A stretch of DNA of 64,000 bases, taken from NCBI RefSeq assembly GCF_014203735.1, contig NZ_JACHJQ010000010.1, positions 186,001-250,000 of the forward strand, read 5' to 3'. The translations under genes were made by a program, and so were the position numbers. This DNA is from Actinophytocola algeriensis. GTDB taxonomy: Bacteria > Actinomycetota > Actinomycetes > Mycobacteriales > Pseudonocardiaceae. The notes under the pieces are model-generated. The model did no database searches and had not been told where the DNA came from. It was given only the letters and a program-made list of their open reading frames with translations. Below are positions 1-18,892 of the stretch, one piece after another. Within the stretch, counting starts at the first letter, position 1. Each line of letters opens with the position of its first letter.

Positions 1-633
1 CCGCCAGTCGTCCTCGGCCGTGTGCGGGCGCCGGATCTCCAGCCCACCGGGGTCCTCCCTCGCCGAGACCAGCGTGATGCCGTCCTCGTCGGTGTGCGCG
101 CTGAACCGCACCTGCCCGGGCAGAGGTGCTTGGTTCCTGGCCGGGTAGTTGTTCACCGCCAAGCCGCAGTAGGGCCTTTCCGTCCAGGCCGGGACATCCT
201 CTCGGGGCAGCTCCAGTTCGGTCGCGACCATGTCGATCACCCGGGTGGACAGGTCGCGGTACAGGTTGAAGGCCCTCAGCCACACCGACCGCATCCTGGC
301 CGGCCGCTCGGGCCACAGGTCGAAGGACTCGAACTCGTGTCCCTGGAACCATTCGACGAGATCGGGCACCTTCCCCGGCTCCACCAGGTCCGGGTCACCA
401 CGGTACATCGGCACCCATCCCTGCCACAGGCCCTGCTCGGGCGAGCGGACCTTGCCCTTCTCCTGCTCGGGCAGGTCGAAGAACTCCGCCGAGACGTCAG
501 CCAACTCCTGCTGCAGGTCATCGGGAATTCCGTGACCGGTGACCAGCACGCACGACCAGTCGATCAGGGCCTCGGTCAGCTCGCCGGCACTCGTCGTGGC
601 CAGGTCGAGGACTGGGACGGTGGCGGTTGCCAT
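1..633 (-). CDS. isopenicillin N synthase-like Fe(II)/2OG oxygenase, 3' end outside window
   Basis: Reading the minus strand from an ATG at 633 gives 211 codons without a stop, running off the left edge, so the C-terminus is missing. It starts MATATVPVLDLATTSAGELT and has the N-terminal DIOX layout (VTGHGIP, then EFFDLPEQEKGKV). The first half of the iron triad is visible as AHTDEDGITLV, with His about 180 and Asp about 182. The distal His and the Arg that would bind 2-oxoglutarate lie beyond the edge. GGGAGAAGG precedes the ATG. Family members hydroxylate, desaturate or cyclise small molecules or carrier-bound amino acids. It is divergent from the carbamoyltransferase operon across 245 bp, so joint function with that operon is an inference. 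Confidence 0.85.
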   Translation of the reverse strand, partial: MATATVPVLDLATTSAGELTEALIDWSCVLVTGHGIPDDLQQELADVSAEFFDLPEQEKGKVRSPEQGLWQGWVPMYRGDPDLVEPGKVPDLVEWFQGHEFESFDLWPERPARMRSVWLRAFNLYRDLSTRVIDMVATELELPREDVPAWTERPYCGLAVNNYPARNQAPLPGQVRFSAHTDEDGITLVSAREDPGGLEIRRPHTAEDDWR

Positions 634-878
634 GGTGCTGGCCTTCTCCCTTGCCGATGGCAAAGCGTGAACGGTAGCGAGAAACCGGCCCCATGACTTT
701 GTCGACGGTCCTGAAACGGGCCGGGAAGATTGCTCATGCCAGTCTCGCGAATGGGGCAGGAGTCGTCAAGCGACCTTGCAACCCTTGGCGATAGGTGGGC
801 GGCGGTGCATACTTGTGGTTGCCCGGGCGCAGAACATTGGTTTACGGCTCACCACACCGATTTTGGAGGTCGTCAGGC
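634..878. promoter_or_regulatory. divergent intergenic region of the first biosynthetic locus
   Basis: These 245 bp separate the divergent oxygenase and carbamoyltransferase starts and must carry both promoters. The plus-strand ribosome site GGAGG is at 865-869, 9 nt before the GTG start at 879. I see only weak promoter-like matches (TTGCAA near 776, TACTTG near 810) and no convincing palindrome. Confidence 0.4.
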
Positions 879-2672
879 GTGTGGATTCTCGGCCTTTCTT
901 GTTTTCGAGATGATGCGACAGCGGCCTTGCTCAAAGATGGCGCGGTGGTGGGCATCGCGGAAGAGGAGCGTTTCCTGCGCGTGAAGCACGCCGTGGAGCG
1001 TCCACCTGGAACATTCGTGTCCTCGCTCGGCGAATCACACGCACTCGACGGCTTCGAGCTCCGCTACTTTCCGGAGCAGAGCATCAACTACCTGCTGCAC
1101 GCGGCAGGCATCGAGCTGACCGATATAGACATCGTCGCGTACGACTTCGATTTCGATCGGCGAATCAGGCACTGGGACCGTTTCCTACCGGTCAGTGCGC
1201 TGTCGTCCGCGCAACAGAATGAGCAGTCCGTGGCGGTGCTGCGGTACTGGCAGCGAATGCTGGCGGATTTCGCGGAGCGCTGCGGGGCGCGACTGGAATA
1301 TGTGCCGCATCATCTGGCACACGCGAGCGGCACTGTGTTCGGCTCCGGCCACCTTGACACAGCTTTCCTGATAATGGACGCACTGGGCGAGCTCGAATCC
1401 AGTACGCTCGGTCACTTCGACGGAGATTTCCGTTTTACCCGGCAGGTTGCGCTTCCGCATTCACTGGGAATCGTCTACGCCGCGGTCACCAGCTTCCTCG
1501 GGTTCCGTCCGTTCAGCGACGAGCAGAAGACGATGGGCCTGGCCGCTTACGGTGACCCGGCCGTGTTCGCCGCTGAGTTCGGCAAGATTCTCCGCCCGGC
1601 AGCCGACGGGTTCACGACCGAGCCCGATGCGGTGTGGGGCAGTGATGTGATCGAGGTGGACCGACCGCCCCAGCTGGGCGGCGTCCTCGGCTTGCCGGCC
1701 GGCCCGTCGGCCACGCAGGTCTGCCGTCCTCCCTACACCCACGTCGCGGCCGCCTTGCAGAAGACCCTCGAAGGCGTCGTGAACCACCTCGTCGACCAGG
1801 CACTGGCCACCACGCGCAGCCGGCGGCTGTGCCTGGCCGGGGGCGTGGCGCTGAACTGCGCGGCCAACGGGACCCTGCTGGCGAGGGACGACATCGACGA
1901 ACTGTACGTTCAGCCGCAGGCCGGCGACTCGGGCACAGCGCTGGGGGCGGCCTACTACGCCCATTTCCGCTCGACCGGTAGCAGGCCGGAGCCGCTGCCC
2001 CACGCATACTGGGGGCCCGGTTACGCCGACAGCGAGGTCCGTGACCTGCTCGACCGCCTGAAGCTCCCCTACCGGCAGACCGACCGGCCCTGGGACACGG
2101 CGGCAGAGCTGCTTGCCGACGGTAACGTGGTCGGCTGGTTCCAGGGCCGATCGGAATGCGGCCCGCGGGCACTGGGCAATCGCAGCATCCTCGCCGACCC
2201 CCGGGACGTCGCGAACCGGGACCGCATCAACACGGTCGTCAAGGACCGGGAGTGGTGGCGGCCGTTCGCGGCGTCGATCCTCGACGAGCAGCGCTCGCGA
2301 TACCTGGCCTTCGACGTACCCTCCCCGTTCATGTTGCTCACCATCCCGCTGACCGAGGTTGGCCGGCGGGACCTGGCGGCGGCCGCGCACATCGATGGCA
2401 CCACCCGGCCGCAGACGGTTTCCGCGGCGGTCAACCCGCGCTATCACCGCCTGATACGGGCATTCCAGGACCGGACGGGTGTCGGTGCCGTGCTGAACAC
2501 CTCGCTCAACGTCAAGAGCGAGCCACTCGCCAACGACCCCGTGCACGCGATCACCAATCTGTACACCACGGCGATGGACGCGCTGGTGATCGAGAACTTC
2601 GTGCTCGTCAAGCAACCCTCCCCGGCGGGATCAGCCGTGCACCCGGCAACCAGGACGATGGTCCGGCCGTGA
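879..2672 (+). CDS. NodU/CmcH-family carbamoyltransferase
   Basis: 597 aa. It is predicted to transfer a carbamoyl group from carbamoyl phosphate, via carbamoyl-AMP, to a hydroxyl or amine of a small molecule. The N-terminus GLSCFRDDATAALLKDG and the following AEEERFLRVKHA are typical of the family. The Kae1-like core has HHLAHASG near residue 160 and GGVALNCAANG near residue 325, and the C-terminal domain has GRSECGPRALGNRSIL. Length is normal for the family. GTG at 879 is chosen because GGAGG lies 9 nt upstream and family homology begins there. An upstream in-frame ATG at 795 has no ribosome site. The stop overlaps the next start (GTGA), so it is translationally coupled to the LanB-like gene. 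The acceptor is unknown. Confidence 0.88.
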   Translation: MWILGLSCFRDDATAALLKDGAVVGIAEEERFLRVKHAVERPPGTFVSSLGESHALDGFELRYFPEQSINYLLHAAGIELTDIDIVAYDFDFDRRIRHWDRFLPVSALSSAQQNEQSVAVLRYWQRMLADFAERCGARLEYVPHHLAHASGTVFGSGHLDTAFLIMDALGELESSTLGHFDGDFRFTRQVALPHSLGIVYAAVTSFLGFRPFSDEQKTMGLAAYGDPAVFAAEFGKILRPAADGFTTEPDAVWGSDVIEVDRPPQLGGVLGLPAGPSATQVCRPPYTHVAAALQKTLEGVVNHLVDQALATTRSRRLCLAGGVALNCAANGTLLARDDIDELYVQPQAGDSGTALGAAYYAHFRSTGSRPEPLPHAYWGPGYADSEVRDLLDRLKLPYRQTDRPWDTAAELLADGNVVGWFQGRSECGPRALGNRSILADPRDVANRDRINTVVKDREWWRPFAASILDEQRSRYLAFDVPSPFMLLTIPLTEVGRRDLAAAAHIDGTTRPQTVSAAVNPRYHRLIRAFQDRTGVGAVLNTSLNVKSEPLANDPVHAITNLYTTAMDALVIENFVLVKQPSPAGSAVHPATRTMVRP

Positions 2673-5023
2673 CCAGCGGGCCTCAGTGGTACTTCACCAG
2701 GCGTCTGGTGTTCCGGATGGCGGGGTTCCCGGTCTCCTGGCTGCTGCGACTCCAGTCGACGACGGCGACCGGGTGGGTGCGCGACCTCCTTGCCCTCGAA
2801 GCGGATCTGCTCAGCCTGCGGAGCGAGTACCTCGACTGGCTCTTCGAGGAGCGGCGGGCGACAGTCGACGCACTGGTCCGCAACGGGGCCAACCGGGCCG
2901 CGCGACAGATCTGGCGGTTGCAGCCGGTGCCGCCGGACAGGCTGCCCGGCACCTGGCCGGAGCGACTGGAACCGTGGAACGTGGCGGCACGCAAACGCGA
3001 GCAGCTGCTCGCCGCGGCGTCCGGTGGATGGCCTGCCGAGCTGAAGCGCCTGGAAGCGGTCCTGCAACGCACTGTCTCATCGCCGGATCTGCAGGAGGCC
3101 GTGTTCCTCAACAGCCCTGACGCACTGACCGGAATCCGCCGGTTCGCGGGCGGGCGGAAATCCGCGCCGCTGCGCAGGCTGGCCGTTCGGTACCTGCAGC
3201 GGTTCTGCGTCAAGGTGGAGACCGGTGGCTTCTACGGCCCGATCAACCACGGGCAGTTCGCGCCCGGTTCGCCGGATCCGGTGACACTGGCGGCCCGCGG
3301 GGATGGCCGGGCCGGGCAACGGCGTACCTTGCTCAGCTATTGGACGGCGCAACAGATCGCGTCCGCGTGGGCCCGCGACGAGCGGCTCACCGGCCTGCTC
3401 CGGCTGTACCGCGCGGCCCGCCGTGACGCGGGGAGCGGCCCGGCGCCCGACGGTGCGCTGCTGGCCCTGGCGACCGGGGAGCACACTCTCGAATCGGTAG
3501 CAGCACAGCTCGGCATGCCGCTGGACACCCTCCACGCCGTAGTGCTGGACGCGCAGTCCCGAGGATGGCTCCGCACCGGCATCCGGGTGCCCGCCACCGC
3601 AGGCGACCCGCTGGCCGCGCTGCGCGGCCTGGTCGCGGACTCGGCGCTCGCGGTCCGCGCGGGCCTGCTCGACCGGCTCAGCGAAGTGGAGCGCCTGCTC
3701 AGCGATTTCGCGCAGGCCGATCTGCCCGGGCGTGAACGGCTGCTGGCCGAGGGGACCGAGATCATCGCCGCGCTGACCGGAGAACAACCGACCCGGGGAG
3801 CGGGATCGTTCTATGCGGACCGCTTCTGGTACACCGACGAAGCCATCGGCAATCTCGGGCACATGACGTTCGGGCAGCCGGTCGCGGAACGACTTGCCCG
3901 CGCACTCGCACCCGCACTGGACATCCTGGCCAGCAGTGCTGTGGCCGAACGAGAGGCCCAGCACGAAGTCGTGCGCCGGCTCCGCGCCCGCGCAGGTGGC
4001 GTGCTCGGGGCGGAGCAGCTCGCGGACATGCCAGAACCCGAGTGGACAGACGGCCCGGGTGCATGGGCGGGTGTGCGGCTGACCGGGGCATCGCGGCTCG
4101 AGCTCACCCTCGACGACGTGCGCGACCTCGGACTGATTCGCGACGACCTGGACCAGTGGCCGCTGTTCTGTGCCCCTGACGTGATGCTGGTGGCCCGCGA
4201 CCGTGCACAGCTCCGCGGTGCGGACTGGCAGGTCGTGCTGTCGGAGGCGCACCACATCTGCCCCCCGACGCAACTGCCGTTCGTCACGTTCGACCCAGAG
4301 CCGGCCAGAGTGCGGGCAGAGGTGGGGGCCGCCGTCCGTACTCTGGCCGGGGCGGCGCGGCCGCTGCTGCAGGGAATCGACCGGCAGAACAAGGTCCGGG
4401 ACTACACTCCGGCAGGCCACTCGGTGCTCTGGCTGAACTGGCAGGCCACCGAGCCACGGGCCGACAGCGTGCGCATCGGCGACTGCCGGGTGGGCGTGGG
4501 CTCGGACGGCAGGCCGGCCCTGCACGACGGTGACGGTGCCCAGCTGGCGCTCTTCCCCGAGTACGAAGACGCCTACCCCGACATGCGCATGCTGCGGGCT
4601 GTCGCGCTGCCGGGGATGGACAAACGACCGATCCGGCTGTCGACCATGACGCCGCGAATCACGATCGGCGGGCTGGTCCACCAGCGGCAGCGGTGGGATC
4701 TGACCGCGGGCGACCTGCCCCGCTGGGGGGTTCCGGCCGGGTCGTTCGGGGAGTACCTCGCGGCGTGGCGGTGGAAGACCGAGTGGAAGATGCCCGACCA
4801 GGTGTTCGTCCGGCTGCCCGGCGAGGAAAAGCCGATGTTCCTGGACTTCCGCAGCCCGCTTTCGGTGGACACGTTCCTACGTGCCGCCGCCGGATGTGAC
4901 CGGCTGAGCCTGGATGAGATGCTGCCGGGCTTCGACGACCTGTGGCTGGAGATCGCGGGCGAGCGGTACTGCTGCGAGCTGCGGCTCACCGCATTCCGGG
5001 ACAGCGGCGGGTGTCCGCGGTGA
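2669..5023 (+). CDS. stand-alone LanB-like protein (lantibiotic dehydratase N-terminal/glutamylation domain)
   Basis: 784 aa. It begins VTSGPQWYFTRRLVFRMAGF, the R-x-AGFP opening seen in actinobacterial proteins annotated as lantibiotic dehydratase. The central FCVKVETGGFYGPINHG matches the conserved core of LanB glutamylation domains, and the C-terminal part has RITIGGLVHQRQRW and VRLPGEEKPMFLDFRSPL, also typical. Full LanB enzymes add a roughly 300-aa SpaB_C elimination domain, and none is present here. Relatives use aminoacyl-tRNA either to glutamylate Ser/Thr or, in the PEARL class, to append amino acids to a peptide. No precursor peptide, LanC or elimination partner is nearby, so the substrate is open. 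Overlaps both neighbours by 4 nt (GTGA at 2669 and at 5020). Confidence 0.72.
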   Translation: MTSGPQWYFTRRLVFRMAGFPVSWLLRLQSTTATGWVRDLLALEADLLSLRSEYLDWLFEERRATVDALVRNGANRAARQIWRLQPVPPDRLPGTWPERLEPWNVAARKREQLLAAASGGWPAELKRLEAVLQRTVSSPDLQEAVFLNSPDALTGIRRFAGGRKSAPLRRLAVRYLQRFCVKVETGGFYGPINHGQFAPGSPDPVTLAARGDGRAGQRRTLLSYWTAQQIASAWARDERLTGLLRLYRAARRDAGSGPAPDGALLALATGEHTLESVAAQLGMPLDTLHAVVLDAQSRGWLRTGIRVPATAGDPLAALRGLVADSALAVRAGLLDRLSEVERLLSDFAQADLPGRERLLAEGTEIIAALTGEQPTRGAGSFYADRFWYTDEAIGNLGHMTFGQPVAERLARALAPALDILASSAVAEREAQHEVVRRLRARAGGVLGAEQLADMPEPEWTDGPGAWAGVRLTGASRLELTLDDVRDLGLIRDDLDQWPLFCAPDVMLVARDRAQLRGADWQVVLSEAHHICPPTQLPFVTFDPEPARVRAEVGAAVRTLAGAARPLLQGIDRQNKVRDYTPAGHSVLWLNWQATEPRADSVRIGDCRVGVGSDGRPALHDGDGAQLALFPEYEDAYPDMRMLRAVALPGMDKRPIRLSTMTPRITIGGLVHQRQRWDLTAGDLPRWGVPAGSFGEYLAAWRWKTEWKMPDQVFVRLPGEEKPMFLDFRSPLSVDTFLRAAAGCDRLSLDEMLPGFDDLWLEIAGERYCCELRLTAFRDSGGCPR

Positions 5024-6474
5024 GCTGGGCCGACCTGGTGAGTCCACCGTATGAGCCGTGGCGATTCATGCTCACCGTCGACGACGTCAACTACGACCTG
5101 CACGAGATAGCAGCGCTGGCCGGCAGTGAGCGCGCACCGGCGATCATCAACCTGTCGTCCGGGATCAACTCTTGGCACCCACCGCAGCGGCTGGTGTCGT
5201 TCGTGGTCAACGCGGCCAGTGACCCGCTGTTCTGGGAAGACTACGACGGCCCGTACGGCCACGTGGTGGGCCGGGCAGCCGTAGCGGCATGCGAGTCCCT
5301 GCGGGGTGACGGGCAGCTCGAGCTCGGCGTCGAGAACGTGCTCGTCACCGCCGGCGCCAGCGCGGCGCTGACTGTCGCCGCTCGCGGGATGCGTCACACA
5401 CTGTCGGCGAGCGCGGGCGGGGAGCCTCCGCAGGCCATCATCCCGGTACCCACCTTCCCGATGGCAGCCGCCTGCCTGGCCCAGGCGGGCTTCAGGATCG
5501 TGGAGCTGTCTGCCGCACCGGGGCATCGCTGGCTGCCCTCAGTGGCCGAGGTGACCGCGGCCACCACCCCGCACACCCGGGTGCTGTACCTGAACACGTT
5601 CAACAACCCGAGTGGGGAGTTCTACGACGGCACCGAGCTACGTCAACTGGTGGTGTGGGCCAGGGACCACGACGTCACGATTCTGCACGACACCGTCTCC
5701 TCGGACATCTCGTGCGCCGGACCGGTTCCGCACCTGCTGTCGATCGCTGCCGCGGCAGGGTATCCGGACGGCGTGGTCACGGTCGGCAGCATGTCCAAAT
5801 CGCGGTCCATACCGGGGTTCCGTGTCGGCTGGCTCATCGCAGGCGTCCAACTGGCCCGGCAGTTCGCCCGGCTCAACGACCTCGTCGCGCCGTCCTCACC
5901 CGCGATCGCCTCCCCTGCGCTGCTGGTGGACCGCCTCGCCGCCGTTGCCGGAGAGCAGCTCGACACCGCTGGTGACCCAACGCTGCCGCACGCGGCCCAC
6001 GACCTGGCCGCGACGGTCGGTGCGGCCTGGAACCTGGTGCTGGAGCTCACCGGTCCGTACCTGCCGGCCTTTCCCGGCCTGGACACGTTCCTCGGCACGG
6101 CGGCAGCCGAACTGGCCGAGAACGGGGCGGTACACGAACTGGCCCGATGGCGCGCATCTCTCCGGGATCAGCTGGCCGGCAACGCCGCGATCCTCAGCGA
6201 GGAGTTCAGCGACCTGGTCGGGAAGGTGCCCGCCTGGCACGGTGACTTCAACACGTTCGTGGAACTGCCCGCGCTGCGGGGCCGCGACTACCTCGACACC
6301 ACGTACCGCTTGTTCCGGGACCACGGGCTGCAGACCCTGCCCGCCCCTGCCTTCGGCTACCACAGCGCGTGGTGGGCCGAACGGGGCTACTTCACCCGCC
6401 TGTCGTTCGCGCTCCCCGTGGAAACGTGGACCGAGGGACTCCAGCGGCTGCGCCGGGCGGTCATGGAGGCATGA
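5020..6474 (+). CDS. PLP-dependent class I/II aminotransferase
   Basis: 484 aa from GTG 5020, which overlaps the previous stop. GTG 5011 is an in-frame alternative. It is a fold-type I enzyme: VTAGASAALTVAARGM binds the cofactor phosphate, LNTFNNPSGEFYDG and LHDTVSSD (the Asp pairs with the pyridine nitrogen) follow, and GSMSKSRSIPGFRVGW places the Schiff-base lysine at about residue 260. It most resembles the aspartate aminotransferase/capreomycidine-synthase-like group, in which both transamination and replacement or cyclisation chemistry occur, so substrate and exact reaction cannot be read from sequence. It lies between the LanB-like gene and the adenylation-PCP gene with overlapping stops and starts, which points to a role in making or modifying the amino acid used there. 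Confidence 0.85.
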   Translation: MSWADLVSPPYEPWRFMLTVDDVNYDLHEIAALAGSERAPAIINLSSGINSWHPPQRLVSFVVNAASDPLFWEDYDGPYGHVVGRAAVAACESLRGDGQLELGVENVLVTAGASAALTVAARGMRHTLSASAGGEPPQAIIPVPTFPMAAACLAQAGFRIVELSAAPGHRWLPSVAEVTAATTPHTRVLYLNTFNNPSGEFYDGTELRQLVVWARDHDVTILHDTVSSDISCAGPVPHLLSIAAAAGYPDGVVTVGSMSKSRSIPGFRVGWLIAGVQLARQFARLNDLVAPSSPAIASPALLVDRLAAVAGEQLDTAGDPTLPHAAHDLAATVGAAWNLVLELTGPYLPAFPGLDTFLGTAAAELAENGAVHELARWRASLRDQLAGNAAILSEEFSDLVGKVPAWHGDFNTFVELPALRGRDYLDTTYRLFRDHGLQTLPAPAFGYHSAWWAERGYFTRLSFALPVETWTEGLQRLRRAVMEA

Positions 6475-8156
6475 TGGCGCTCGAGGCTGCTCCACTCATC
6501 CACTCCCGGTTCGTGCGGATAGCCGAGGCCGACCCCGGCCGACCGGCGCTGTTCGGTGCGGACCGGTGTCTCACCTACGGCCAGCTACTCGAATCCGCTC
6601 GGCGCGTCGCGGCGTCGCTGCTGGGTCTGGGGCTGGAACCCGGTTCCCGGGTGGCGATCATCGCCAGGAGGAACCCCGGCCTCGTCATCCAGCTGCTCGG
6701 GGTGCTGCTGGCCGGGTGCCAGTTCGCGGTTCTGGACCGGATGTATCCGCGGGCCCGGCTGCGAGCGATGATCGACGCGTGCCTGCCGCACGCCGTGCTG
6801 GACGAAACCCGGCTGGAGAAGCGGGACGAAGCGGGCCTCGCGGTGGCCGGCCCGACACAAGCCGGGCCGCCCGCCTATCTGGCGTTCACATCCGGCACGA
6901 CCGGAACACCGAAGTGCGTACAAGGTGGGCACGCAGCCGTCGCCCACTACCTGACGTGGTCTCCGGACACGTTCGGCCTGCGCGCCGACGATCGCTTCAG
7001 CATGATCTCAGGCCTGTCCCACGACCCGCTCGTCCGGGACGTCTTCAGCCCACTTTCGCTGGGCGCTCAGCTTTTCGTCCCGGACCCGCGCACCTGGGCG
7101 CGCCCGGAGGCACTGGCGACGTGGATGCGTGAATGCCGGCTCACCGTCACGCACCTGACACCCACGACAGCGCGCCGCGTCTTCCTCCCAGGACAGGCGT
7201 CACTGCCTGAACTGCGACGTGTTGTCCTGGGAGGCGAGGTGGTTCACGCTGGGGATCTGCAGACTTTCGCACAGGTCGCGCCGGGTGCGGAGTTCACCGT
7301 CGTGTACGGCTGCACCGAGACCCCCCAGGTCGTCATGCATCACACGGCCGGCCGCGATGTCCTCACAGGCGACCCGGCCGCGGTGGTGCCGCTCGGTGAG
7401 CCGGCCCCGGAGGCGGAGGTCGAACTCGTCCCGGCGACCGGCGCAGCCGCACCGGCCGGCGAACACGGGGAACTGGTGGTGCGCAGTCCGCACCTCGCGT
7501 TCGGCTACCTCCGGTGTGACGGCGAGGGATTGCGGCTCGAGCCGTTCGGAAAGCAGTACGCCACCGGGGACCTGGGACACCGTGACCCCGATGGACGCTT
7601 GCTGTTCGCGGGCCGGTCGGACCGCCAGGCCAAGATCCGCGGTGCTCGCGTTGAGCTGGACGAGGTCGAGCACCACCTTCGGTCCTGTCCCGGGGTCGTC
7701 CTCGCGGCCGCGAGCGTGGAACCATCCGGTGACGGCCCGCGCGTCCGCGCCACGGTGGTGGTACGGCCCGACGTCCCGGTCACGGAGCGAGAGGTGAAGA
7801 AACACGTGGCAGCACTGCTGCCCACCGCGGCGGTGCCGTCAGCGGTTACGGTCCTGAACGCGGTTCCTGTGAGCCCGAATGGAAAGTTCGACATGAACAG
7901 CGACCAGTCAGCCCGGTCTGCCGAGGACGTGGCCCGCCGAGTCCGCGAGATCCTCGGTGCCGCCCTGGGAAGGGGGCCACTCGCCGCCGGGGACGACTTC
8001 TTCGAGTTGGGCGGCGACTCGCTCGCGGCCATCGAAGCGGCAGCGGCAGTGGAGGAAGAGCTGGGATACGAGCTGTCCATTGAGGACATCTTCACGGTGT
8101 CGGACGTGACGGAACTGTCTGCGCTGGTCTGGAATGGCCTGCGCGCGGACTTGTGA
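6471..8156 (+). CDS. amino-acid adenylation domain fused to a peptidyl carrier protein (A-T didomain)
   Basis: 561 aa. It activates an amino or carboxylic acid as acyl-AMP and loads it on its own carrier domain. Core motifs are in order: AFTSGTTGTPKCVQGG (A3), VVYGCTETPQ (A5), YATGDLGHRDPDGRLLFAGR (A7/A8) and PVSPNGKFDMNS (A10 with the catalytic Lys). The carrier motif DDFFELGGDSLAAIEAA puts the phosphopantetheine serine at about residue 517. No condensation, thioesterase or reductase domain is present. The A4 region reads SGLSHDPLVRDVFSPL, resembling aminoadipate-reductase (Lys2) type adenylation domains more than ordinary NRPS modules. Start is ATGATG at 6471/6474, overlapping the aminotransferase stop, with GGAGG at 6465-6469. 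Last gene of the operon. Confidence 0.9.
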   Translation: MMALEAAPLIHSRFVRIAEADPGRPALFGADRCLTYGQLLESARRVAASLLGLGLEPGSRVAIIARRNPGLVIQLLGVLLAGCQFAVLDRMYPRARLRAMIDACLPHAVLDETRLEKRDEAGLAVAGPTQAGPPAYLAFTSGTTGTPKCVQGGHAAVAHYLTWSPDTFGLRADDRFSMISGLSHDPLVRDVFSPLSLGAQLFVPDPRTWARPEALATWMRECRLTVTHLTPTTARRVFLPGQASLPELRRVVLGGEVVHAGDLQTFAQVAPGAEFTVVYGCTETPQVVMHHTAGRDVLTGDPAAVVPLGEPAPEAEVELVPATGAAAPAGEHGELVVRSPHLAFGYLRCDGEGLRLEPFGKQYATGDLGHRDPDGRLLFAGRSDRQAKIRGARVELDEVEHHLRSCPGVVLAAASVEPSGDGPRVRATVVVRPDVPVTEREVKKHVAALLPTAAVPSAVTVLNAVPVSPNGKFDMNSDQSARSAEDVARRVREILGAALGRGPLAAGDDFFELGGDSLAAIEAAAAVEEELGYELSIEDIFTVSDVTELSALVWNGLRADL

Positions 8157-8199: not shown

Positions 8200-8519
8200 A
8201 GAAGTCACCTTCGACGCCAGCTGTCCGCACCTGGACGCGACCGCCGGCCACGTCACCGAGTTCGCCAAGATCCTCACCAACCTGGGCGGTGACCGCCTCG
8301 ACGACTGGATGGCCGCGGTCGAAGCCGACGACGCCTCACCTGCACCGGTTCGTGCGCGGCCTGCGCCGTGACTACGATGCGGTCCTCAATGGACTCACCT
8401 TGCCGCACAACTCAGGTGCGGTGGAAGGCAACGTCAACCGCATCAAAATGATCAAGCGACAGATGTACGGCCGCGCCAACTTCGACCTCCTACGCAAGCG
8501 CATCCTGCACGCCGCCTGA
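8200..8519 (+). pseudogene. ISL3-family transposase C-terminal fragment
   Basis: Two adjacent frames together encode the end of an ISL3 transposase. The first reads CPHLDATAGHVTEFAKIL (from 8200) and the second reads HLHRFVRGLRRDYDAVLN, then NSGAVEGNVNRIKMIKRQMYG. A one-base slip near 8333 separates them. The catalytic N-terminal two-thirds are missing. It starts 44 bp after the A-T gene and marks the right edge of that locus. I saw no intact terminal inverted repeats. Confidence 0.8.
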
Positions 8520-8946: not shown

Positions 8947-9237
8947 GCCCGGCTCCTCTGAGACAGGACAAATAGCCCCATCGGGCCCGTGGCCAACCTG
9001 AGACGAGAAACGAATCGGGCCAGATCAGCTGAGACCGAAACCGGGGCGTTCGAGACCGGACACCAGGCGAAGGGTCACTTCCATTACGAAAATCGGGAGA
9101 ACCGGCCAAGGCCTCAGGTCGACATTGCTCGCCCGACCGGTTGGGCCGCGTTGTGCATGCCGTCCAGCGACGCCGCCGCTGGTTCGCCAAGCGCCGCAGT
9201 CGATCTGGACGGCTGACCGTAGCGGTTCTCGGCGGCA

Positions 9238-9283
9238 TGGACACGGGCATGGGACTGTTGTATGTTTTTCCGAAATTCCGGAA
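9238..9283 (+). promoter_or_regulatory. promoter and possible operator of the ArsR/protease pair
   Basis: TGGACA at 9238-9243 and TATGTT at 9261-9266 are separated by 17 bp, a good sigma-70-type promoter. Just downstream lies TTCCGAAATTCCGGAA (9268-9283), containing the palindrome TTCCGGAA, placed where a bound repressor would block transcript start. Autoregulation by the ArsR-like product is an inference. Confidence 0.5.
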
Positions 9284-9287
9284 CAAC

Positions 9288-9773
9288 ATGGTGAGTGATG
9301 GACGACATCGAGGAACGCCTTGTCGCACACTTGAAGAGCGGGTCGCTGTGCTGGAGGGCGCCCGGACACCGGTTAAGCGGGTACAGGCGCGGGTCGGGGA
9401 CGGTGAGGTCACCTACGCCGGATCGGTCGGCTTCGGCGACCGGGAGTACGTGTGGGCCAAGGACCACGCGGTCGACGATCTACTGGCCGAGGACTGGCGC
9501 AGCGCGGCGGCGGTGTTGGAACGCCTCGGCAGCCCGGCACGGTTGGCGCTGCTCGCCGCGCTGCTGACGGCGCCACGCACCCGGGCACAACTGCAGGAGG
9601 CACTGGGCGACACGTCGACCGGCCACCTGTACCACCACCTGCGCGAGTTGCAGGGCGCCGGTCTGATCGCGCAGCGCAGACGGGGCGAGTACGAGATCGT
9701 CGCGCAGGCTCCGGTCCCGCTGCTGGCGATCGTCGCGGCCGCCTTGGACCTGAGCACGGGACTACCAGCATGA
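9288..9773 (+). CDS. ArsR-like winged-helix transcriptional regulator, probably frameshifted near its start
   Basis: The HTH region SAAAVLERLGSPARLALLAALL, the recognition segment GHLYHHLRELQGAGLI and a C-terminal PLLAIVAAALDL identify an ArsR-type regulator. The uninterrupted frame can start at ATG 9288 but then opens with an uncharacteristic MVSDGRHRGTPCR. ATG 9298 reads MDDIEERLVA and then leaves the frame. Removing one CA from the CACA at 9326-9329 joins MDDIEERLVA directly to LEERVAVLEGARTP, a plausible N-terminal coiled coil. So the gene may carry a 2-bp slip, or initiate further downstream. It ends in ATGA overlap with the protease gene. Confidence 0.75.
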   Translation: MVSDGRHRGTPCRTLEERVAVLEGARTPVKRVQARVGDGEVTYAGSVGFGDREYVWAKDHAVDDLLAEDWRSAAAVLERLGSPARLALLAALLTAPRTRAQLQEALGDTSTGHLYHHLRELQGAGLIAQRRRGEYEIVAQAPVPLLAIVAAALDLSTGLPA

Positions 9774-10918: not shown

Positions 10919-12223
10919 GTGTCGATTACCAGGATGCTGTCGGGAGACACTGGCGAAGCCGTACGGAAGAGGGGAGCCGGGGCACTGGCACTGTCTGTCG
11001 AGGATGCCCACCGCCGCATCCAGCAGGCCGCGCTGACCGAGTCGGCGGTCGGCCGGATCGGTTTGGAGCTGGAGAACCACGTCGTCGACCTCGGCGACCC
11101 GGCGCGGCCGGTGTGCTGGGACCGGCTCGAACCACTGCCTGCCGCCGTGCGCGAGGCGGCCGGGGCCTGCGCCGTGAGCAGGGAGCCAGGAGGACAGCTG
11201 GAGCTGTCGGCGCCGCCGAGGGCGAGCGTGTCCGCCGCGGTCGCCGCGTTGCGCGCCGACCTCGACCGCGTCCGGGCCGCCCTGGCGCCGCACGGTGTTG
11301 GTCTCGCCCAGGTGGGGACCGATCCGCTGCGCACCCCGCGCCGGGCCAACCCCAGCGACCGGTACCGGGCGATGGAGGAGCACTTCGCGGCGGTGGGCAC
11401 GGTGGTGCCCGGCAGGGTGACGATGAACGCCACCGCCTCCGTCCAGGTCAACCTGGACGCAGGCCCGCGACGAGTCTGGCCGGACCGGGTCGCCCACGCC
11501 TACCGGCTGGGCCCCGCCCTCGTGGCGATCTCGGCCACTTCGCCGTGGTTGTGCGGCGCGCCGACCGGTTGGCAGTCGTCGCGTCTGCGGGCGTGGTTCG
11601 GCCTGGATCAGCGGCGGTGCCTGCCCTTCTTCGACGCCGGGAGCCGGGGGACAGTCACCGACCCGACGACCGCGTGGGCCCGGTTCGCGTTGCGGGCCCC
11701 GTTGATGTTCGTCAGGACGGGCGACGGCCTGTCCGCGGTGCGGGCGGACGTCACGTTCGAGCAGTGGGTGACCGGCGAGGTGCGGCTGAGCGGCAGGTCG
11801 CCCACGGTCGCGGACCTCGATCTCCACCTGACCACGTTGTTCCCGCCGGTGCGGATGCGCGGCTACCTCGAGCTGCGGTACCTCGACGCGCTGCCCACCC
11901 GGTGGTGGCCCGCGGTCGTCGCCGTCACCACTACGCTCATGGACGACCCGGTCGCCGCCGACCTCGCGGCCGAGGCAGCCGAACCCACCGACTCGCTCTG
12001 GTCGCAGGCCGCGCACCAGGGCCTGGCGGACCCGCGGCTCGCCAACGCCGCCTCCCGGTGCCTGCACATCGCCGCCGACCGGGTGCCCACCGAACTGCGC
12101 CCGGCGGTGGCCGACCTGGTGGACCTGGTGGAGTCAGGCCGCTCGCCGGGCGACCTGCTCGCGGAGCGGTTCCGGGCGATCGGCCCTCAAGCCGCCCTCG
12201 CGGAACTCGCCCGGAGTACGTGA
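10919..12223 (+). CDS. egtA: EgtA-like glutamate-cysteine ligase
   Basis: 434 aa. It would make gamma-glutamylcysteine, the sulfur donor used by EgtB in ergothioneine synthesis. Strong family landmarks are GRIGLELENHVVDLGDP, the substrate region GTDPLRTPRRANPSDRYRAM, TMNATASVQVNLDAGP and LTTLFPPVRMRGYLELRYLD. GTG at 10919 begins MSITRML, and ATG 10934 is an alternative. The rest of the pathway (egtB, C, D, E) is not in this window, which is unusual because actinobacterial egt genes are normally clustered. It sits alone 69 bp after the protease gene, in the same direction. Confidence 0.85.
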   Translation: MSITRMLSGDTGEAVRKRGAGALALSVEDAHRRIQQAALTESAVGRIGLELENHVVDLGDPARPVCWDRLEPLPAAVREAAGACAVSREPGGQLELSAPPRASVSAAVAALRADLDRVRAALAPHGVGLAQVGTDPLRTPRRANPSDRYRAMEEHFAAVGTVVPGRVTMNATASVQVNLDAGPRRVWPDRVAHAYRLGPALVAISATSPWLCGAPTGWQSSRLRAWFGLDQRRCLPFFDAGSRGTVTDPTTAWARFALRAPLMFVRTGDGLSAVRADVTFEQWVTGEVRLSGRSPTVADLDLHLTTLFPPVRMRGYLELRYLDALPTRWWPAVVAVTTTLMDDPVAADLAAEAAEPTDSLWSQAAHQGLADPRLANAASRCLHIAADRVPTELRPAVADLVDLVESGRSPGDLLAERFRAIGPQAALAELARST

Positions 12224-12358: not shown

Positions 12359-12934
12359 TCAGGGTGCGACGAGCGCGCGTCGCAGCTGGGCGGCGAGGTC
12401 GGCGCGGTCGAGCTGGTCGTCACGCAGTACCGACTGCATGAGCAGGCCGCACAACAGGGCGCCGAGCATCTGCCCGGTAAGCGGGTCGGTGCGGGCCCGC
12501 AGCACGGCGGCCAGTGCGTCGTCCCATGCCACGGCGGCCTGCCGCAGGTGCGGGCGGTGCAGCGCGAGCGCGTAGAGGTTGTACTCGGCCATCGTGTCGG
12601 CTCGCTTCTCGGTGACCGAGCGGAGCACGAAATCGGCGAGTGCCGCCGCGAGGTCGGCGTCCGGTTCGAGCGACTGCTCCCAGGCGCGCAGTTCGGTGAC
12701 GCTGCGTTCGGCCGCCTTGTCCAGCGCCGCGGCGATCAGGTCGTCCAGGGTGGCGAAGTGGTAGGTGGTCGAGCCGAGGGGCACACCCGCGGCAGCGGCG
12801 ACCTTGCGGTGGGTCAGGCCGTCGATGCCCCGCTCGCCGACGACCGTGACGGCCGCCCTGGCGATGCGGTCGCGGCGGTCGCGGTCCGTCGGGCCTCGTC
12901 GCCGCACCACGGTCGCACCTTCGTCCCCACTCAT
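12359..12934 (-). CDS. betI: BetI-like TetR-family repressor of choline/betaine genes
   Basis: 191 aa. The N-terminal HTH is recognisable: ARAAVTVVGERGIDGLTHRKVAAAAGVPLGSTTYHFATLDDL. The C-terminal ligand domain has LLCGLLMQSVLRDD. TetR repressors of this type bind near their own promoter and release DNA in the presence of choline or betaine aldehyde. It is divergent from betB, and the 91-bp space between them holds a 33-bp palindrome that is the obvious operator. ATG 12934 is taken as start, because longer in-frame extensions run through that operator. Confidence 0.85.
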   Translation of the reverse strand: MSGDEGATVVRRRGPTDRDRRDRIARAAVTVVGERGIDGLTHRKVAAAAGVPLGSTTYHFATLDDLIAAALDKAAERSVTELRAWEQSLEPDADLAAALADFVLRSVTEKRADTMAEYNLYALALHRPHLRQAAVAWDDALAAVLRARTDPLTGQMLGALLCGLLMQSVLRDDQLDRADLAAQLRRALVAP

Positions 12935-12961
12935 GGCATCAACGGTATCCCGCCTGTATGT

Positions 12962-12994
12962 GGACGAGCGTACACATAATGTGTACGCTCGTCC
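12962..12994. promoter_or_regulatory. 33-bp perfect palindrome, probable BetI operator
   Basis: Arms GGACGAGCGTACACAT and ATGTGTACGCTCGTCC (16 bp each, no mismatch) flank one A. It lies midway between betI and betB and contains CATAAT at 12975-12980, a likely -10 element for betB. The mirrored sequence serves the other strand. A dimeric TetR protein bound here would shut both promoters. Confidence 0.85.
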
Positions 12995-13025
12995 GCATTT
13001 CCGTTCGGGGACGGAGGGGCAGACG

Positions 13026-14495
13026 ATGCCGGAGTTGTTCATCGACGGGCGGTGGACCTCGTCTGCCGGCAGCCGGGACGTGGTCAGCCCTGCTGACGGC
13101 AGCACGCTGGCCACCGTGTCCGAGGCCGATGCCGGCGACGTGGCCGCCGCCGTCGCGGCCGCCAGGGCGGCGTTCGACACCGGGCCATGGCGTGCGACCA
13201 GTGCCCGCGAGCGGGGCGACCTGCTGCGCGGGGTCGCCGATCTGCTCGTCCGCGACCGCGAGGAACTCGCTCGTACCGAGACGCTGGACACCGGCAAGAC
13301 GCTCCGTGAGGGGCGGATCGACGTCGACGACGTGGCAGCCGTGTTCCGCTACTACGCGAACCTGGCCGACTCCGATGCGGGCCGGGTGGTCGACACCGGC
13401 AATCCGGGTGTGGTCAGCAGGGTCGTGCGTGAGCCGGTCGGGGTGTGCGCGTTGATCGCACCCTGGAACTACCCGATGCTGCAGATGTCCTGGAAGCTCG
13501 CGCCCGCTCTCGCCGCCGGCAACACCGTGGTGTGCAAGCCGAGCGAGGTCACTCCACTGTCGACGGTCCACATGGTCCGGCTGGTGGCCGAGGCCGGTGT
13601 GCCGGACGGTGTGGTCAACCTGGTGCTGGGTGACGGCGCGGTCGTCGGCTCCGCGATGGTGGAGCATCCGGACGTCGACCTCGTGTCGTTCACCGGGGGG
13701 CTCGCCACCGGCAGGCGGATCATGGCGATGGCCGCGCCGGACGTGAAGCGGGTGGCGCTGGAGTTGGGTGGAAAGAACCCCAACGTGGTGTTCGCCGACG
13801 CCGATTTCGACACCGCCGTCGACTACGCGCTCACCGCCGCGTTCCTCCACTCCGGACAGGTCTGCTCGGCAGGCTCCCGGCTGATCGTCGCGGAGTCGAT
13901 ACACGACGAGTTCGTCGCCGAGCTGGCGTGGCGTGCCGAACGGATCCGGCTCGGCAACGGCATGGACGAGGCGAGCGAGTGCGGGCCGCTGGTGTCGGCC
14001 GCGCACCGGGACAAGGTCGAACGCCACATCGAGAAGGCGGTCGCCGAGGGCGCCACGCTGGTCACCGGCGGCACTCGCCCGGACGGCGAGGAGTTCAGCG
14101 CGGGTTACTTCCTGCGGCCGGCGATCTTCACCGGCTGCCACTCCGGCATGGCGATCGTGCGCGAGGAAGTGTTCGGCCCGGTGGTCACCGTCGAGACGTT
14201 CGGTTCCGAAGCCGAAGCCGTGGCGATCGCCAACGACACCGACTACGGCCTGGCGGGCGCGGTGTGGACGACCGACGTCTCCCGCGCGCAGCGGGTGGCG
14301 AACGCCCTGCGGCACGGCACGGTGTGGATCAACGATTTCCACCCGTACGTACCGCAGGCGGAATGGGGTGGCTTCGGCAGATCGGGCATCGGCCGCGAGC
14401 TGGGACCGTCCGGTCTGGACGAGTACCGGGAGGCCAAGCACATCTACCACAACATCGCGCCGACCCCTGGCCGGTGGTTCGGGGGCGGTTCGTGA
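13026..14495 (+). CDS. betB: betaine-aldehyde dehydrogenase
   Basis: 489 aa, aldehyde dehydrogenase family. It oxidises betaine aldehyde to glycine betaine with NAD(P)+. Cofactor and active-site segments are intact: [47 protein letters not shown] (general-base Glu) and [14 protein letters not shown] (nucleophilic Cys). The ATG at 13026 follows GGAGGGG at 13013-13019. The gene ends in GTGA overlap with betA. Assignment to betaine aldehyde rests on the betI-betA-betT context, since the motifs are shared by the whole family. Confidence 0.9.
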
Positions 14496-16157: not shown

Positions 16158-18260
16158 ATGTCGTCCGCCCAGGACGTACCGGCCAAGGACAGCAGGCTCA
16201 ACCCCGTCGTGTTCTACGGTTCGTCGGCACTGATCATCGCGATCTCACTGTGGGCCATCATCACCCCGTCCGGCGCCGAACAGGCCATCGGCGTCGTGGT
16301 CGGCTGGGTGTCCGGGAGCCTGGGCTGGTACTACTTCCTCGCCGCCACGATCTTCCTCGTGTTCGTCGTGTTCATCGCGGTCTCCCGCTACGGCACGATC
16401 AAGCTCGGCCCCCAGCACTCGAAACCGGACTTCAGCCTGTTCGCCTGGGCGGCCATGCTCTTCGCCGCGGGCATCGGGATCGACCTGATGTTCTTCTCCG
16501 TGTCCGGCCCGGTCTCGCACTACCTCGCCCCGCCGGAGGGCGCGGCGGAGACGGTCGAGGCCGCTCGCCAGGCCATCGTGTGGACGATGTTCCACTACGG
16601 CATCACCGGCTGGGCGATGTACGCGCTGATGGGCATGGCGCTCGGCTACTTCGCCTTCCGCTACCGGCTGCCGCTGTCGATCCGCTCCGCGCTGTACCCG
16701 ATCATCGGCAAGCGGGTGCACGGCAGGCTCGGTGACGCCGTCGACCTGGCGGCGGTGATCGGCACGATCTTCGGCATCGCGGTGTCGCTCGGCATCGGCG
16801 TGGTACAGCTCAACCACGGCCTGAAGATCCTGTTCGACCTGCCCGAGGGCGTGCCGGCGCAGATCGGGTTGATCGCCGTCGCCGTCCTGATGGCCACGGT
16901 GTCCGCGGTCGCGGGCGTCGACAAGGGCATCCGGAGGATGTCCGAGCTGAACGTCGTGCTGGCCATCGTGCTGATGCTGTACGTGGCGATCATGGAGAAC
17001 CCGGTCCAGCTGCTCAACGCGTTCATCATGAACATCGGCGACTACGTGAGCCGGTTCCCCGGGATGACGCTGAACACCTTCGCCTACGACCAGCCCACCG
17101 AATGGCTCAACGCCTGGACGTTGTTCTTCTGGGCGTGGTGGGTCGCGTGGGCGCCGTTCGTCGGGCTCTTCCTGGCCCGGATCTCCCGCGGTCGCACCAT
17201 CCGGCAGTTCGTGGCGGCGACCCTGATCGTGCCGTTCCTGTTCACGCTGGCGTTCCTGTCGATCTTCGGCAACAGCGCGCTGTCCATCGTGCGCGGCGGC
17301 GACGCCGAGTTCGGTCAGACCGCGATGAACGCGCCGGAACAGGGTTTCTACGCCTTGCTCGACCACTACCCCGGGGTCACGTTCGCCGCCGGTCTCGCCA
17401 CGTTCGTCGGGCTGCTGTTCTACGTGACCTCCGCCGACTCCGGCGCACTGGTGATGGGCAACTTCACCTCCCGCCTGCGGACACCGACCACCGACGCGGC
17501 CCGCTGGGTGCGGGTGTACTGGTCCGTCGCGACCGGTGTGCTCACACTTGCCATGCTGCTGGTCGGCGGCGTCGGCGCGCTCACGAACGCGACGATCATC
17601 ATGGGCTTGCCGTTCTCGTTCGTGATGTTCCTGGTGATGCTCGGGCTGTACAAGGCACTGCGGATCGAACGGTTCCGCGAGGACGCCGCCCGTACCAGCC
17701 TGTCCTCGTCCCTGTCCGAACGGACGACGATCGAAGCCCGGGGCGTCACCCGCACGTGGCGGCAGCGGCTGGCACGGGCGATGCACTACCCGGACGAGCA
17801 GGCCGCGGCCCGGTTCATGACCGAGGTGTGCCGGCCGGCGTTCACCGAGGTCGCCGCTGAACTGCGGGAACAGGGTGCCGACGCCGACGTGCGCGAAGGT
17901 GTGGTCGCCGAACTCGGCATGCCGTACTACGAGCTCACCGTGGCGATGGGCACCGAGGAGGAGTTCACCTACCGCGCCTGGCCGTGCCGGGCACGGACGC
18001 CGTCGTTCGCACCGCGCAGGGGTGGTAGCGCGGAGACCTACTTCCGGGTCGAGGTGTACCTGACCGAAGGCAGCCAGGGCTACGACGTGCTCGGCTACAG
18101 CACCGAGCAGCTGATCAACGACCTGCTCGACCAGTACGAGCGGCACCTCGAGTTCCTGCGGCTGCACATGGAGACCACCCATGGCGCGTTGCCCGACCAC
18201 GCCGAGGACATCGTCACACCGGAGCCACCGGCCGTCCCCGACCCCGTCGGCAAGGACTGA
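16158..18260 (+). CDS. betT: BCCT-family choline/betaine transporter with C-terminal extension
   Basis: 700 aa inner-membrane symporter with about 12 hydrophobic segments between residues 15 and 510. The BCCT signature region includes NAWTLFFWAWWVAWAPFVG, and FAAGIGIDLMFFSVSGPVSHY lies in TM3-4. A roughly 180-aa hydrophilic C-terminal domain follows (from DEQAAARFMTEVCRP), as in E. coli-type BetT, where this tail senses osmotic strength. GGAGAGG precedes ATG 16158, which lies 4 nt after betA. Choline is the likely substrate given the operon. Confidence 0.92.
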   Translation: MSSAQDVPAKDSRLNPVVFYGSSALIIAISLWAIITPSGAEQAIGVVVGWVSGSLGWYYFLAATIFLVFVVFIAVSRYGTIKLGPQHSKPDFSLFAWAAMLFAAGIGIDLMFFSVSGPVSHYLAPPEGAAETVEAARQAIVWTMFHYGITGWAMYALMGMALGYFAFRYRLPLSIRSALYPIIGKRVHGRLGDAVDLAAVIGTIFGIAVSLGIGVVQLNHGLKILFDLPEGVPAQIGLIAVAVLMATVSAVAGVDKGIRRMSELNVVLAIVLMLYVAIMENPVQLLNAFIMNIGDYVSRFPGMTLNTFAYDQPTEWLNAWTLFFWAWWVAWAPFVGLFLARISRGRTIRQFVAATLIVPFLFTLAFLSIFGNSALSIVRGGDAEFGQTAMNAPEQGFYALLDHYPGVTFAAGLATFVGLLFYVTSADSGALVMGNFTSRLRTPTTDAARWVRVYWSVATGVLTLAMLLVGGVGALTNATIIMGLPFSFVMFLVMLGLYKALRIERFREDAARTSLSSSLSERTTIEARGVTRTWRQRLARAMHYPDEQAAARFMTEVCRPAFTEVAAELREQGADADVREGVVAELGMPYYELTVAMGTEEEFTYRAWPCRARTPSFAPRRGGSAETYFRVEVYLTEGSQGYDVLGYSTEQLINDLLDQYERHLEFLRLHMETTHGALPDHAEDIVTPEPPAVPDPVGKD

Positions 18261-18309
18261 ACGCTTCACCACAACCCGAAGGCAGACCGAACAGCGGACA
18301 GCACGTCAC

Positions 18310-18892
18310 GCGGTCATCGTTCCCACCTGGCGAGCCTTTGGTTCGAGGGCCGGGCGGTGAGATCGGCGAGCGGCTCAGCGCCAGCGCCGGGTCGGTGTCG
18401 ACCGCCCTCAGGTCGCTCGCCGCAGAACAGCACGGTGCAGGCGATGCTGCGGGCCGCGGACTGGCCTGCCACCGCCACGGTGCTGTCATCGGCACCGCAT
18501 GGGGCGGCCTGACCACGGAGGCCATTGACAGCACGAGCAATGACGTGTTCGCGATCGACCAGGTGCCCTTCCACCAGCTGTTCCCGAGGGTGGCGGCCGT
18601 GATCCACCACGGTGGCGCGGGCACCGTCGCCGCGGGACGGCCCCAGGTCGTGTGCCCGTTCGTCGCCGACCGACCGTTCTGGGGACAGCGGGTGCACGAC
18701 CTCGGAGTCGCACCAGCACCCGTTGGCCAACGCCATCTCGACGTCGATCGGCTCGCCGCGGCCATCGAACAGGCCGTGCGCGATACGCGACTCGCTTCGG
18801 CGGCGACCAGGCTTGGTCGACAGGTCCGGGCCGAGGACGGCGTCCGCGAAGCGGTTCGTCAACTGGAGACGATCGCCGCCCGGCGCTCCTGA
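18310..18892 (+). pseudogene. chimeric remnant: HTH fragment plus GT1 glycosyltransferase C-terminal half
   Basis: Around 18355-18420 the plus strand reads GEIGERLSASAGSVSTALRS, a MarR/GbsR-like winged-helix fragment. It is followed by pieces of a macrolide-type GT1 glycosyltransferase. TVQAMLRAADW (near 18440) is in one frame. AVIGTAWGGL, then VFAIDQVPFHQLFPRVAAVI and HHGGAGTVAAGRPQVVCPFV, are in another. The donor-binding HHGGAGT box is present, but several residues normally following it are missing and the N-terminal acceptor domain is absent. A 184-codon frame (18338-18892) remains open but is unlikely to encode an active enzyme. Confidence 0.65.

Follow-up and report, generated by a model that had tools for sequence, protein, structure and literature searches.

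What does a LanB-like protein do when it is encoded near an adenylation-peptidyl carrier protein (A-PCP) didomain, between a carbamoyltransferase and an enzyme dependent on pyridoxal 5'-phosphate (PLP)? The question is raised by the left edge of a 64,000-nucleotide stretch of Actinophytocola algeriensis DNA (contig NZ_JACHJQ010000010.1, positions 186,001 to 250,000; G000:C10:186001-250000, genome of 9.7 Mb in 23 contigs), which is termed the window here. A preliminary description of this DNA saw a compact locus; that picture has to be given up, as the locus runs on for ~17 kb leftward beyond the window edge, into the partly overlapping stretch L003 (C10:167001-187000). Judged from strand, spacing and family, 18 genes over ~25 kb (C10:169031-194156) would form one cluster, of which the window holds the right third only. 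We propose, from sequence and a structural model, that the window holds the right-hand end of a cluster that would make a guanidino-amino-acid peptide or isopeptide, in which the LanB-like protein would act as a peptide aminoacyl-tRNA ligase (PEARL) and extend a free carboxylate with an amino acid supplied by tRNA; we regard the chances for and against this proposal as even. The most economical account of the gene set would be that one amide bond is made by the parts of nonribosomal peptide synthetase (NRPS) type and another by the tRNA-dependent ligase.

The 784-residue LanB-like protein has a single Pfam match, the glutamylation domain PF04738, and no elimination domain. The passages of PMC11962472 and PMC12945691 available to us name 15 residues of BhaB7 for binding of ATP, the carboxylate or the tRNA 3' end, and call the TglB residues D558/E542, E813, R815, R34 and R208 critical. 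For eleven of the 15, motif and spacing allowed a placement on the window protein, and all of these match (R16, Y175, R178, D504, E526, H528, R673, F713, K721, E770 and R772); the matching set includes the counterparts of the critical TglB residues. At the ATP site (BhaB7 R34, Y426, D558, E575, H577, R715, F755, K763, E813 and R815), nine of ten residues are placed and match, Y426 being left unplaced, while at the tRNA 3' end (R197, Q201, Y205, R208 and R429) two of five, Y205 and R208, match. The R-40-F-8-K and E-x-R spacings are preserved. Across an alignment of 16 related proteins, Y175, R178, D504, H528, R673, E770 and R772 are invariant, and ten of the 11 positions hold one accepted residue in all covering rows when F/Y and K/R are counted as equal; E526 differs in three rows, R16 is uncovered in two, and F713 and K721 are replaced by Tyr and Arg, respectively, in three rows each.

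The AlphaFold2 model of the protein (pLDDT 81, pTM 0.84) retrieves from the PDB at E ≤ 0.001 only the LanB-type enzymes TbtB, GodF, MadB, MibB and NisB (11 chains), with TbtB on top (E 2.4e-23, 16% identity). Only weak fold matches (E 0.1 to 2) were obtained to glutathione synthetase and RimK, in agreement with the published kinship to ATP-grasp enzymes. A phmmer search of the PDB gave a single match, 1apx (E 0.0024), which was dismissed as chance. Because PF04738 stands alone, 11 named residues match and the fold matches are to LanB proteins only, the protein is probably a PEARL-type aminoacyl-tRNA-dependent ligase, as predicted from sequence and model.

The genes that give this ligase its context lie largely to the left of the window. 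The amidinotransferase is closest among solved chains to StrB1 (1bwd, E 7e-103, residues 52-393 of 395), followed by SxtG and HsvA, and its GGFHC motif holds the expected Cys, which we take to be the active-site residue. The oxygenase at L003:17623-18687 is closest to 6daw (E 3e-45), presumably the arginine desaturase NapI, and then to VioC entries; that at L003:8531-9511 is closest to CmnC (E 8e-55), then to 6daw and VioC-type entries. The PLP enzyme, described preliminarily as an aminotransferase, does belong to the class I/II PLP enzymes (PF00155), but kinship with the GntC/VioD cyclases describes it better; its lysine, K286 in the numbering of the longer open reading frame (ORF) that starts at 4942, stands in an SKSR motif. 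The reactions of the oxygenases and the PLP enzyme are assigned by family and remain putative. The amidinotransferase, two VioC/GntD-type oxygenases and a condensation (C) domain, all encoded outside the window, point to a guanidino-amino-acid pathway. The ATP-grasp-like protein owes its name mainly to a KPxxGSxGxGV motif read by eye, and its Pfam matches are weak (Plectin, E 0.068; NMB0537_N, 0.13; CP_ATPgrasp_1, 0.17; GSH-S_ATP, 0.35); its AlphaFold2 model (pLDDT 41) was set aside as useless. This protein and the amidinotransferase were the two of the 18 that had no Pfam match in the general family scan.

Relatives of the cluster were found with the PLP protein, in a scan of 84,980 species' contigs that was restricted to two peptide patterns. 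Two loci emerged, in Plantactinospora endophytica NBRC 110450 (55% identity) and in Actinophytocola xanthii 11-183 (52%), the latter first met through its PEARL; stretches of 21.4 and 36.0 kb, respectively, were compared with the window locus. A core of seven genes is present in all three loci. The identities (A. xanthii/Plantactinospora) are 40/47% for the regulator, 46/44% for the VioC/GntD-type oxygenase, 52/55% for the PLP enzyme, 32/33% for the PEARL, 36/40% for the ATP-grasp-like protein, 39/34% for the major facilitator superfamily (MFS) transporter and 56/59% for the amidinotransferase. Each relative has one such oxygenase, matched by both window oxygenases, and the presence of the PLP enzyme in both follows from the construction of the search. 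The carbamoyltransferase, the oxygenase at the window edge, the Opp permeases, the binding protein and the aldo/keto reductase have no match at E ≤ 1e-4 in either relative.

Searches with the PLP protein matched 1 of 394 genomes of the class (E ≤ 1e-60) and 1 of 396 of the phylum (E ≤ 1e-50), the window's own both times, and two of six genomes of the genus, its own included. A LanB-like match at E ≤ 1e-10 occurs in 63 of 297 genomes of the family sample; LanB-like proteins are thus common, and the seven-gene core is rare. A tree of 16 rows groups the three core PEARLs in one clade (support 100/99) and separates them both from proteins of multi-LanB loci such as that of genome G273 and from a five-member clade of LanB-like proteins that are fused to NRPS adenylation domains or adjoin them (100/100). 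Two single-ORF fusions of LanB with NRPS domains (Table 1) come from genomes of the same family as the window. A second LanB-like match in the A. algeriensis genome lies at G000:C5:351604-352434 (34% over query residues 502-776).

The relatives carry further genes of interest. SbnA is above its cut-off in Plantactinospora with a similar ORF in A. xanthii, and SbnB is above its cut-off in A. xanthii and was not seen in the Plantactinospora stretch. Because of these genes, A. xanthii, and perhaps Plantactinospora, probably makes 2,3-diaminopropionate, a likely substrate for amidination. Neither SbnA nor SbnB was recognised among the 18 genes of the window cluster; elsewhere in the A. algeriensis genome SbnA homologues occur in six places, the best at 36% identity with an internal stop. 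The Plantactinospora cluster contains a heme-dependent N-hydroxylase of the GntA family that passes its NCBIfam cut-off, and a GntA-like ORF was recognised by eye in A. xanthii; a search of the window genome, run without controls, found no GntA homologue. Plantactinospora also encodes an ATP-grasp ligase with a LAL_C2 domain, and a similar ORF is seen by eye in A. xanthii. ORFs resembling phosphotransferases of the APH/choline-kinase type, again by eye, adjoin the core in both relatives (L026, ~17622-18613, plus strand; L020, ~12400-13368, minus strand) and possibly serve self-protection.

The pathway that we propose would start with one or both VioC/GntD-type 2-oxoglutarate (2OG) oxygenases, which would act on arginine, or on a related guanidino acid, by hydroxylation or desaturation. 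The GntC/VioD-like PLP enzyme would then remove the hydroxyl and close a cyclic guanidine of the capreomycidine or enduracididine type, and the StrB1-like amidinotransferase would build a guanidine on the amine of a second building block. The A-PCP would load an amino acid, which the free-standing C domain would join to the guanidino acid. In the step assigned to the PEARL, the free carboxylate would be phosphorylated with ATP and condensed with an aminoacyl-tRNA, and the tRNA would be hydrolysed off afterwards. The carbamoyltransferase and the third oxygenase may decorate the product, which would leave the cell via the MFS and/or the Opp-type transporter. The product, all of the substrates, the choice of tRNA and the sequence in which the steps occur are conjectural here. 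The preliminary description had considered a small metabolite in which tRNA-dependent and carrier-dependent chemistry may meet, and the gene set fits this idea; the pairing is unusual but not new, as SnaE provides a precedent. Its further suggestion of a tRNA-dependent modification of the PCP itself finds no direct support.

Several observations weigh against the proposed pathway. Besides the placement of the PEARL residues by motif and spacing, BhaB7 Gln201 and Arg197 correspond to Leu and Pro here, counted at an ungapped offset from Y175; no position could be assigned to Tyr426 or Arg429; and the Asp-Glu spacing is 22, compared with 17 in BhaB7. In the 16-protein alignment the PEARL shares only 31-32% identity with its two closest relatives. 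The A-PCP and C domain stand outside the conserved core: together with the ATP-binding cassette (ABC) ATPases and the luciferase-type oxidoreductase they have no match in the 21.4 kb of Plantactinospora, and in A. xanthii all of these have only weak matches at 26-38% identity. The two oxygenases and the PLP enzyme stay below the curated cut-offs: the oxygenase at L003:8531-9511 reaches 288.6 of 345 bits for GntD and 257 of 418.6 for VioC, that at L003:17623-18687 reaches 224.7 and 183.7 bits, and the PLP enzyme reaches 120.6 of 415 bits for its best NCBIfam family of 59, NF041364 GntC (E 7e-35), and 59.6 of 390.9 for VioD, TIGR03947 (E 2e-16). The free-standing C domain reads FHHIIVDG and not the ureido-type EHHxxHDG; the ureido reversal seen in threopeptin therefore does not account for a free carboxylate in this cluster. 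As to the placement of the NRPS parts in A. xanthii, the ATP-grasp-like gene and the amidinotransferase flank an A-domain-like match (28%, 692-aa ORF), and beyond the regulator come the matches to PCP and C and a second A-like match; the Plantactinospora stretch stops 1.7 kb past the amidinotransferase, and further genes may follow.

Another origin of the free carboxylate is improbable, yet the best placed of the alternatives: the A domain would use the side-chain carboxyl to load Glu, Asp or aminoadipate, the C domain would make an isopeptide, and the PEARL would extend the free alpha-carboxylate. Alignments to LgrA and CmnG, read by hand with the help of GrsA motifs, give the pocket code DPRHVGVQVK, and the PCP serine sits in LGGDS. 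Codes of the side-chain-activating microcystin domains for iso-Glu and iso-MeAsp begin with DPRH or DARH; searches of the literature for such strings and the microcystin papers examined did not return these codes, and no literature support for side-chain activation by them was found. The window code does resemble DPRHLALLAK of aminoadipate and DPRHVSLLAK of Asn domains, as given in the part of PMC12283262 available to us. On the other side, CmnG, listed as a capreomycidine domain in the table of PMC11253843, by our reading shares D235, P236, H278 and G301 with the window domain, and the Plantactinospora PEARL has no A domain in the stretch seen. If true, side-chain loading would give the use of a PEARL a second chemical rationale, beside ureido reversal.

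Somewhat less probable still is a pathway of the pearlin type, in which the LanB-like enzyme extends a small ribosomal scaffold peptide that is later modified and cut off, with the A-PCP acting separately. By score, the LanB-like proteins next after the core ones are those of G273, whose locus combines four LanB-like genes with two PmbA/TldD-type proteases, presumably a pearlin-like gene set. When short ORFs (20-130 aa, under 60% within listed genes; 85, 31 and 35 in the three loci) were compared, none was common to the window locus and either relative below E 0.03; strong matches between the two relatives were shadows of the SbnA-type gene. The gaps in the cluster are ≤245 nt, and no protease family occurs among the Pfam matches of its 18 genes, two of which have no match at all. 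Neither a conserved small ORF nor a protease match thus represents the scaffold gene and TldD-type protease of a pearlin set in the cluster. The preliminary description had named a LanC-like gene or precursor peptide left of the window as the finding that would overturn it: no LanC-like gene was found among the 18, and no conserved peptide candidate. A role as dehydratase, acting by glutamylation on Ser/Thr of a peptide that is lanthipeptide-like or NRPS-bound, is very unlikely and was rejected because of the domain content, the ATP-site residues and the lack of LanC among the cluster genes: the PF04738 homology, the best folds TbtB (thiomuracin) and GodF (goadsporin) and the two mismatched tRNA-site residues speak for it, but the protein has no elimination domain, it has the C-terminal ExR of PEARLs, before which the TbtB profile match ends, the elimination domain, precursor peptide and LanC of a class I lantibiotic dehydratase set are missing among the 18 genes, and a PF14028 search of the genome was empty, which counts for little as all 14 controls were silent as well.

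Within the window, three 4-nt overlaps (GTGA at 2669, GTGA at 5020, ATGA at 6471) join four plus-strand genes, and both this tight arrangement and the divergent 2OG oxygenase facing it had been recognised correctly before. The oxygenase (DIOX_N and 2OG-FeII_Oxy domains, truncated at the window edge, HTD and RQS motifs present) likely starts at 633 and is the first of three divergent genes, with a VioC/GntD-type oxygenase and the amidinotransferase; its earlier label as similar to isopenicillin N synthase holds at the superfamily level only. The intergenic region, a presumed promoter, has no match to a sigma-70-type consensus, and its small ORFs are not conserved in the two relatives. The carbamoyltransferase, listed from 795, likely starts at GTG 879, which GGAGG precedes; it contains an HHLAH motif and reaches 106.6 of 1000 bits, below the NodU equivalog cut-off. 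The PLP gene likely starts at 5020. To the right of the cluster, no further core gene was noticed in the ORF list to 13 kb.

Table 1. Coordinates of the cluster genes, their surroundings and loci in other genomes (window positions unless a locus is named)
Feature	Location	Strand	Families and remarks
Non-haem Fe(II)/2OG-type oxygenase, edge gene	1-633; whole gene C10:185695-186633; L003:18695-19633	-	PF14226, PF03171; ~312 aa from ATG 633
Divergent intergenic region, presumed promoter	634-878	.	no convincing precursor peptide
NodU/CmcH-type carbamoyltransferase	879-2672	+	597 aa; PF02543 (E 1e-41), PF16861 (E 1e-62)
LanB-like protein, read as PEARL	2669-5023	+	784 aa; Lant_dehydr_N PF04738 (E 4e-18)
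Fold-type-I PLP enzyme, GntC/VioD group	5020-6474	+	~484 aa; PF00155 (E 6e-20)
A-PCP didomain	6471-8156	+	561 aa; PF00501 (AMP-binding, E 5e-58), PF13193, PF00550 (PP-binding, E 3e-13)
ISL3-type transposase remnant, just right of last cluster gene	8289-8519	+	76 aa; PF01610 E 3e-7, profile 183-240 of 240
Helix-turn-helix protein, right of cluster	9141-9773
GCS2-family ligase, right of cluster	10919-12223
Helix-turn-helix regulator	L003:2031-3167	+
Two Opp-type permeases	L003, left of window	+
Fused pair of Opp-type ATPases	L003, left of window	+
Aldo/keto reductase	L003, left of window	+
VioC/GntD-type oxygenase	L003:8531-9511	+
ATP-grasp-like protein	L003:9578-10933	+
MFS transporter	L003, left of window	+
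F420/luciferase-type oxidoreductase	L003, left of window	+
SBP_bac_5 binding protein	L003, left of window	+
Free-standing condensation domain	L003:15123-16376	+
StrB1-like amidinotransferase	L003:16508-17695	-
Second VioC/GntD-type oxygenase	L003:17623-18687	-
LanB-NRPS fusion, G254	L031:9382-15126	-	single ORF, 1914 aa; C + A-PCP + LanB
LanB-NRPS fusion, G278	L030:4415-10384	+	single ORF, 1989 aa; A-PCP + LanB
Multi-LanB locus, G273	L022:6226-18029	+	four LanB-like genes, two PmbA/TldD-type proteases; flavin reductase just before
GntA-family heme-dependent N-hydroxylase, Plantactinospora	L026:5911-6684	+	above NCBIfam cut-off

Among known systems, the closest is the threopeptin (sna) cluster of Stackebrandtia nassauensis. 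According to the part of PMC11212132 available to us, about two thousand clusters for NRPS and polyketide synthase (PKS) products carry annotated LanBs, and the addition of Thr to an NRPS/PKS product depends on the PEARL-like SnaE. As described there, a PEARL-like enzyme is encoded with adenylation-thiolation (A-T) and C domains, no precursor peptide was found, and the product contains guanidino (arginine) residues. The window cluster likewise encodes an A-PCP and a C domain with its PEARL. In contrast to the A-T-C-A-T NRPS, PKS and ureido-forming C domain that PMC11212132 gives for sna, a single A-PCP, a free-standing C domain and arginine-tailoring genes are found here, with no PKS among the 18 genes. 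Most ATP-site residues, and the enzyme family itself, are common to the cluster and the pearlin pathways of TglB, AmmB and BhaB (passages of PMC11962472 and PMC12945691); neither a scaffold peptide nor a protease of the TldD type was found here, and two of the named tRNA-site residues are different.

The capreomycidine and streptolidine pathways (VioC/VioD, CmnC, OrfR) resemble the cluster in their VioC-family oxygenase, PLP cyclase-like enzyme and NRPS parts, whereas the scores stay below the equivalog cut-offs and the PEARL, the amidinotransferase and the NodU-type carbamoyltransferase are extra here. As far as the part of PMC10367076 on guanitoxin (GntA, GntC, GntD) goes, the likeness lies in the PLP enzyme, which matches GntC best, in both oxygenases, which match GntD best, and in the GntA-family protein of Plantactinospora, while peptide-forming enzymes set the cluster apart. 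Streptomycin StrB1 is the closest solved sequence to the amidinotransferase, and no aminocyclitol genes were recognised among the 18. No published pathway with this combination of genes was found, judging by titles and abstract openings in a search that left most subscription journals uncovered.

PEARLs in NRPS clusters have thus been published already (threopeptin, 2024), and the present cluster is a variant. What differs from threopeptin is the guanidino core, the non-ureido C domain and a relative locus with a PEARL in which no NRPS part was found. We tentatively extend the proposal, at well under even chances, to a PEARL that, throughout this gene family, works as a stand-alone, tRNA-fed peptide synthetase on small, free amino acids, joining an aminoacyl-tRNA directly to a cyclic guanidino amino acid, or to a short isopeptide, with neither a ribosomal scaffold peptide nor an NRPS-bound chain. 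If so, the purest form of such a PEARL would be seen in Plantactinospora, where the same core occurs and 21.4 kb showed no NRPS part, and the NRPS parts of the window cluster would replace the ATP-grasp ligase of the relatives.

SnaE is the only NRPS-cluster PEARL that we found described as characterised, and its authors, in the part of PMC11212132 available to us, invoke chain reversal via a ureido group. A cluster that lacks a ureido-type C domain could be used to test whether PEARLs serve more widely, wherever thioester chemistry cannot reach a carboxylate. The same core with differing peptide-forming parts, A-PCP and C domain here and an ATP-grasp ligase in the relatives, offers three comparable loci, and the core points to guanidino peptides of a group so far uncharacterised.

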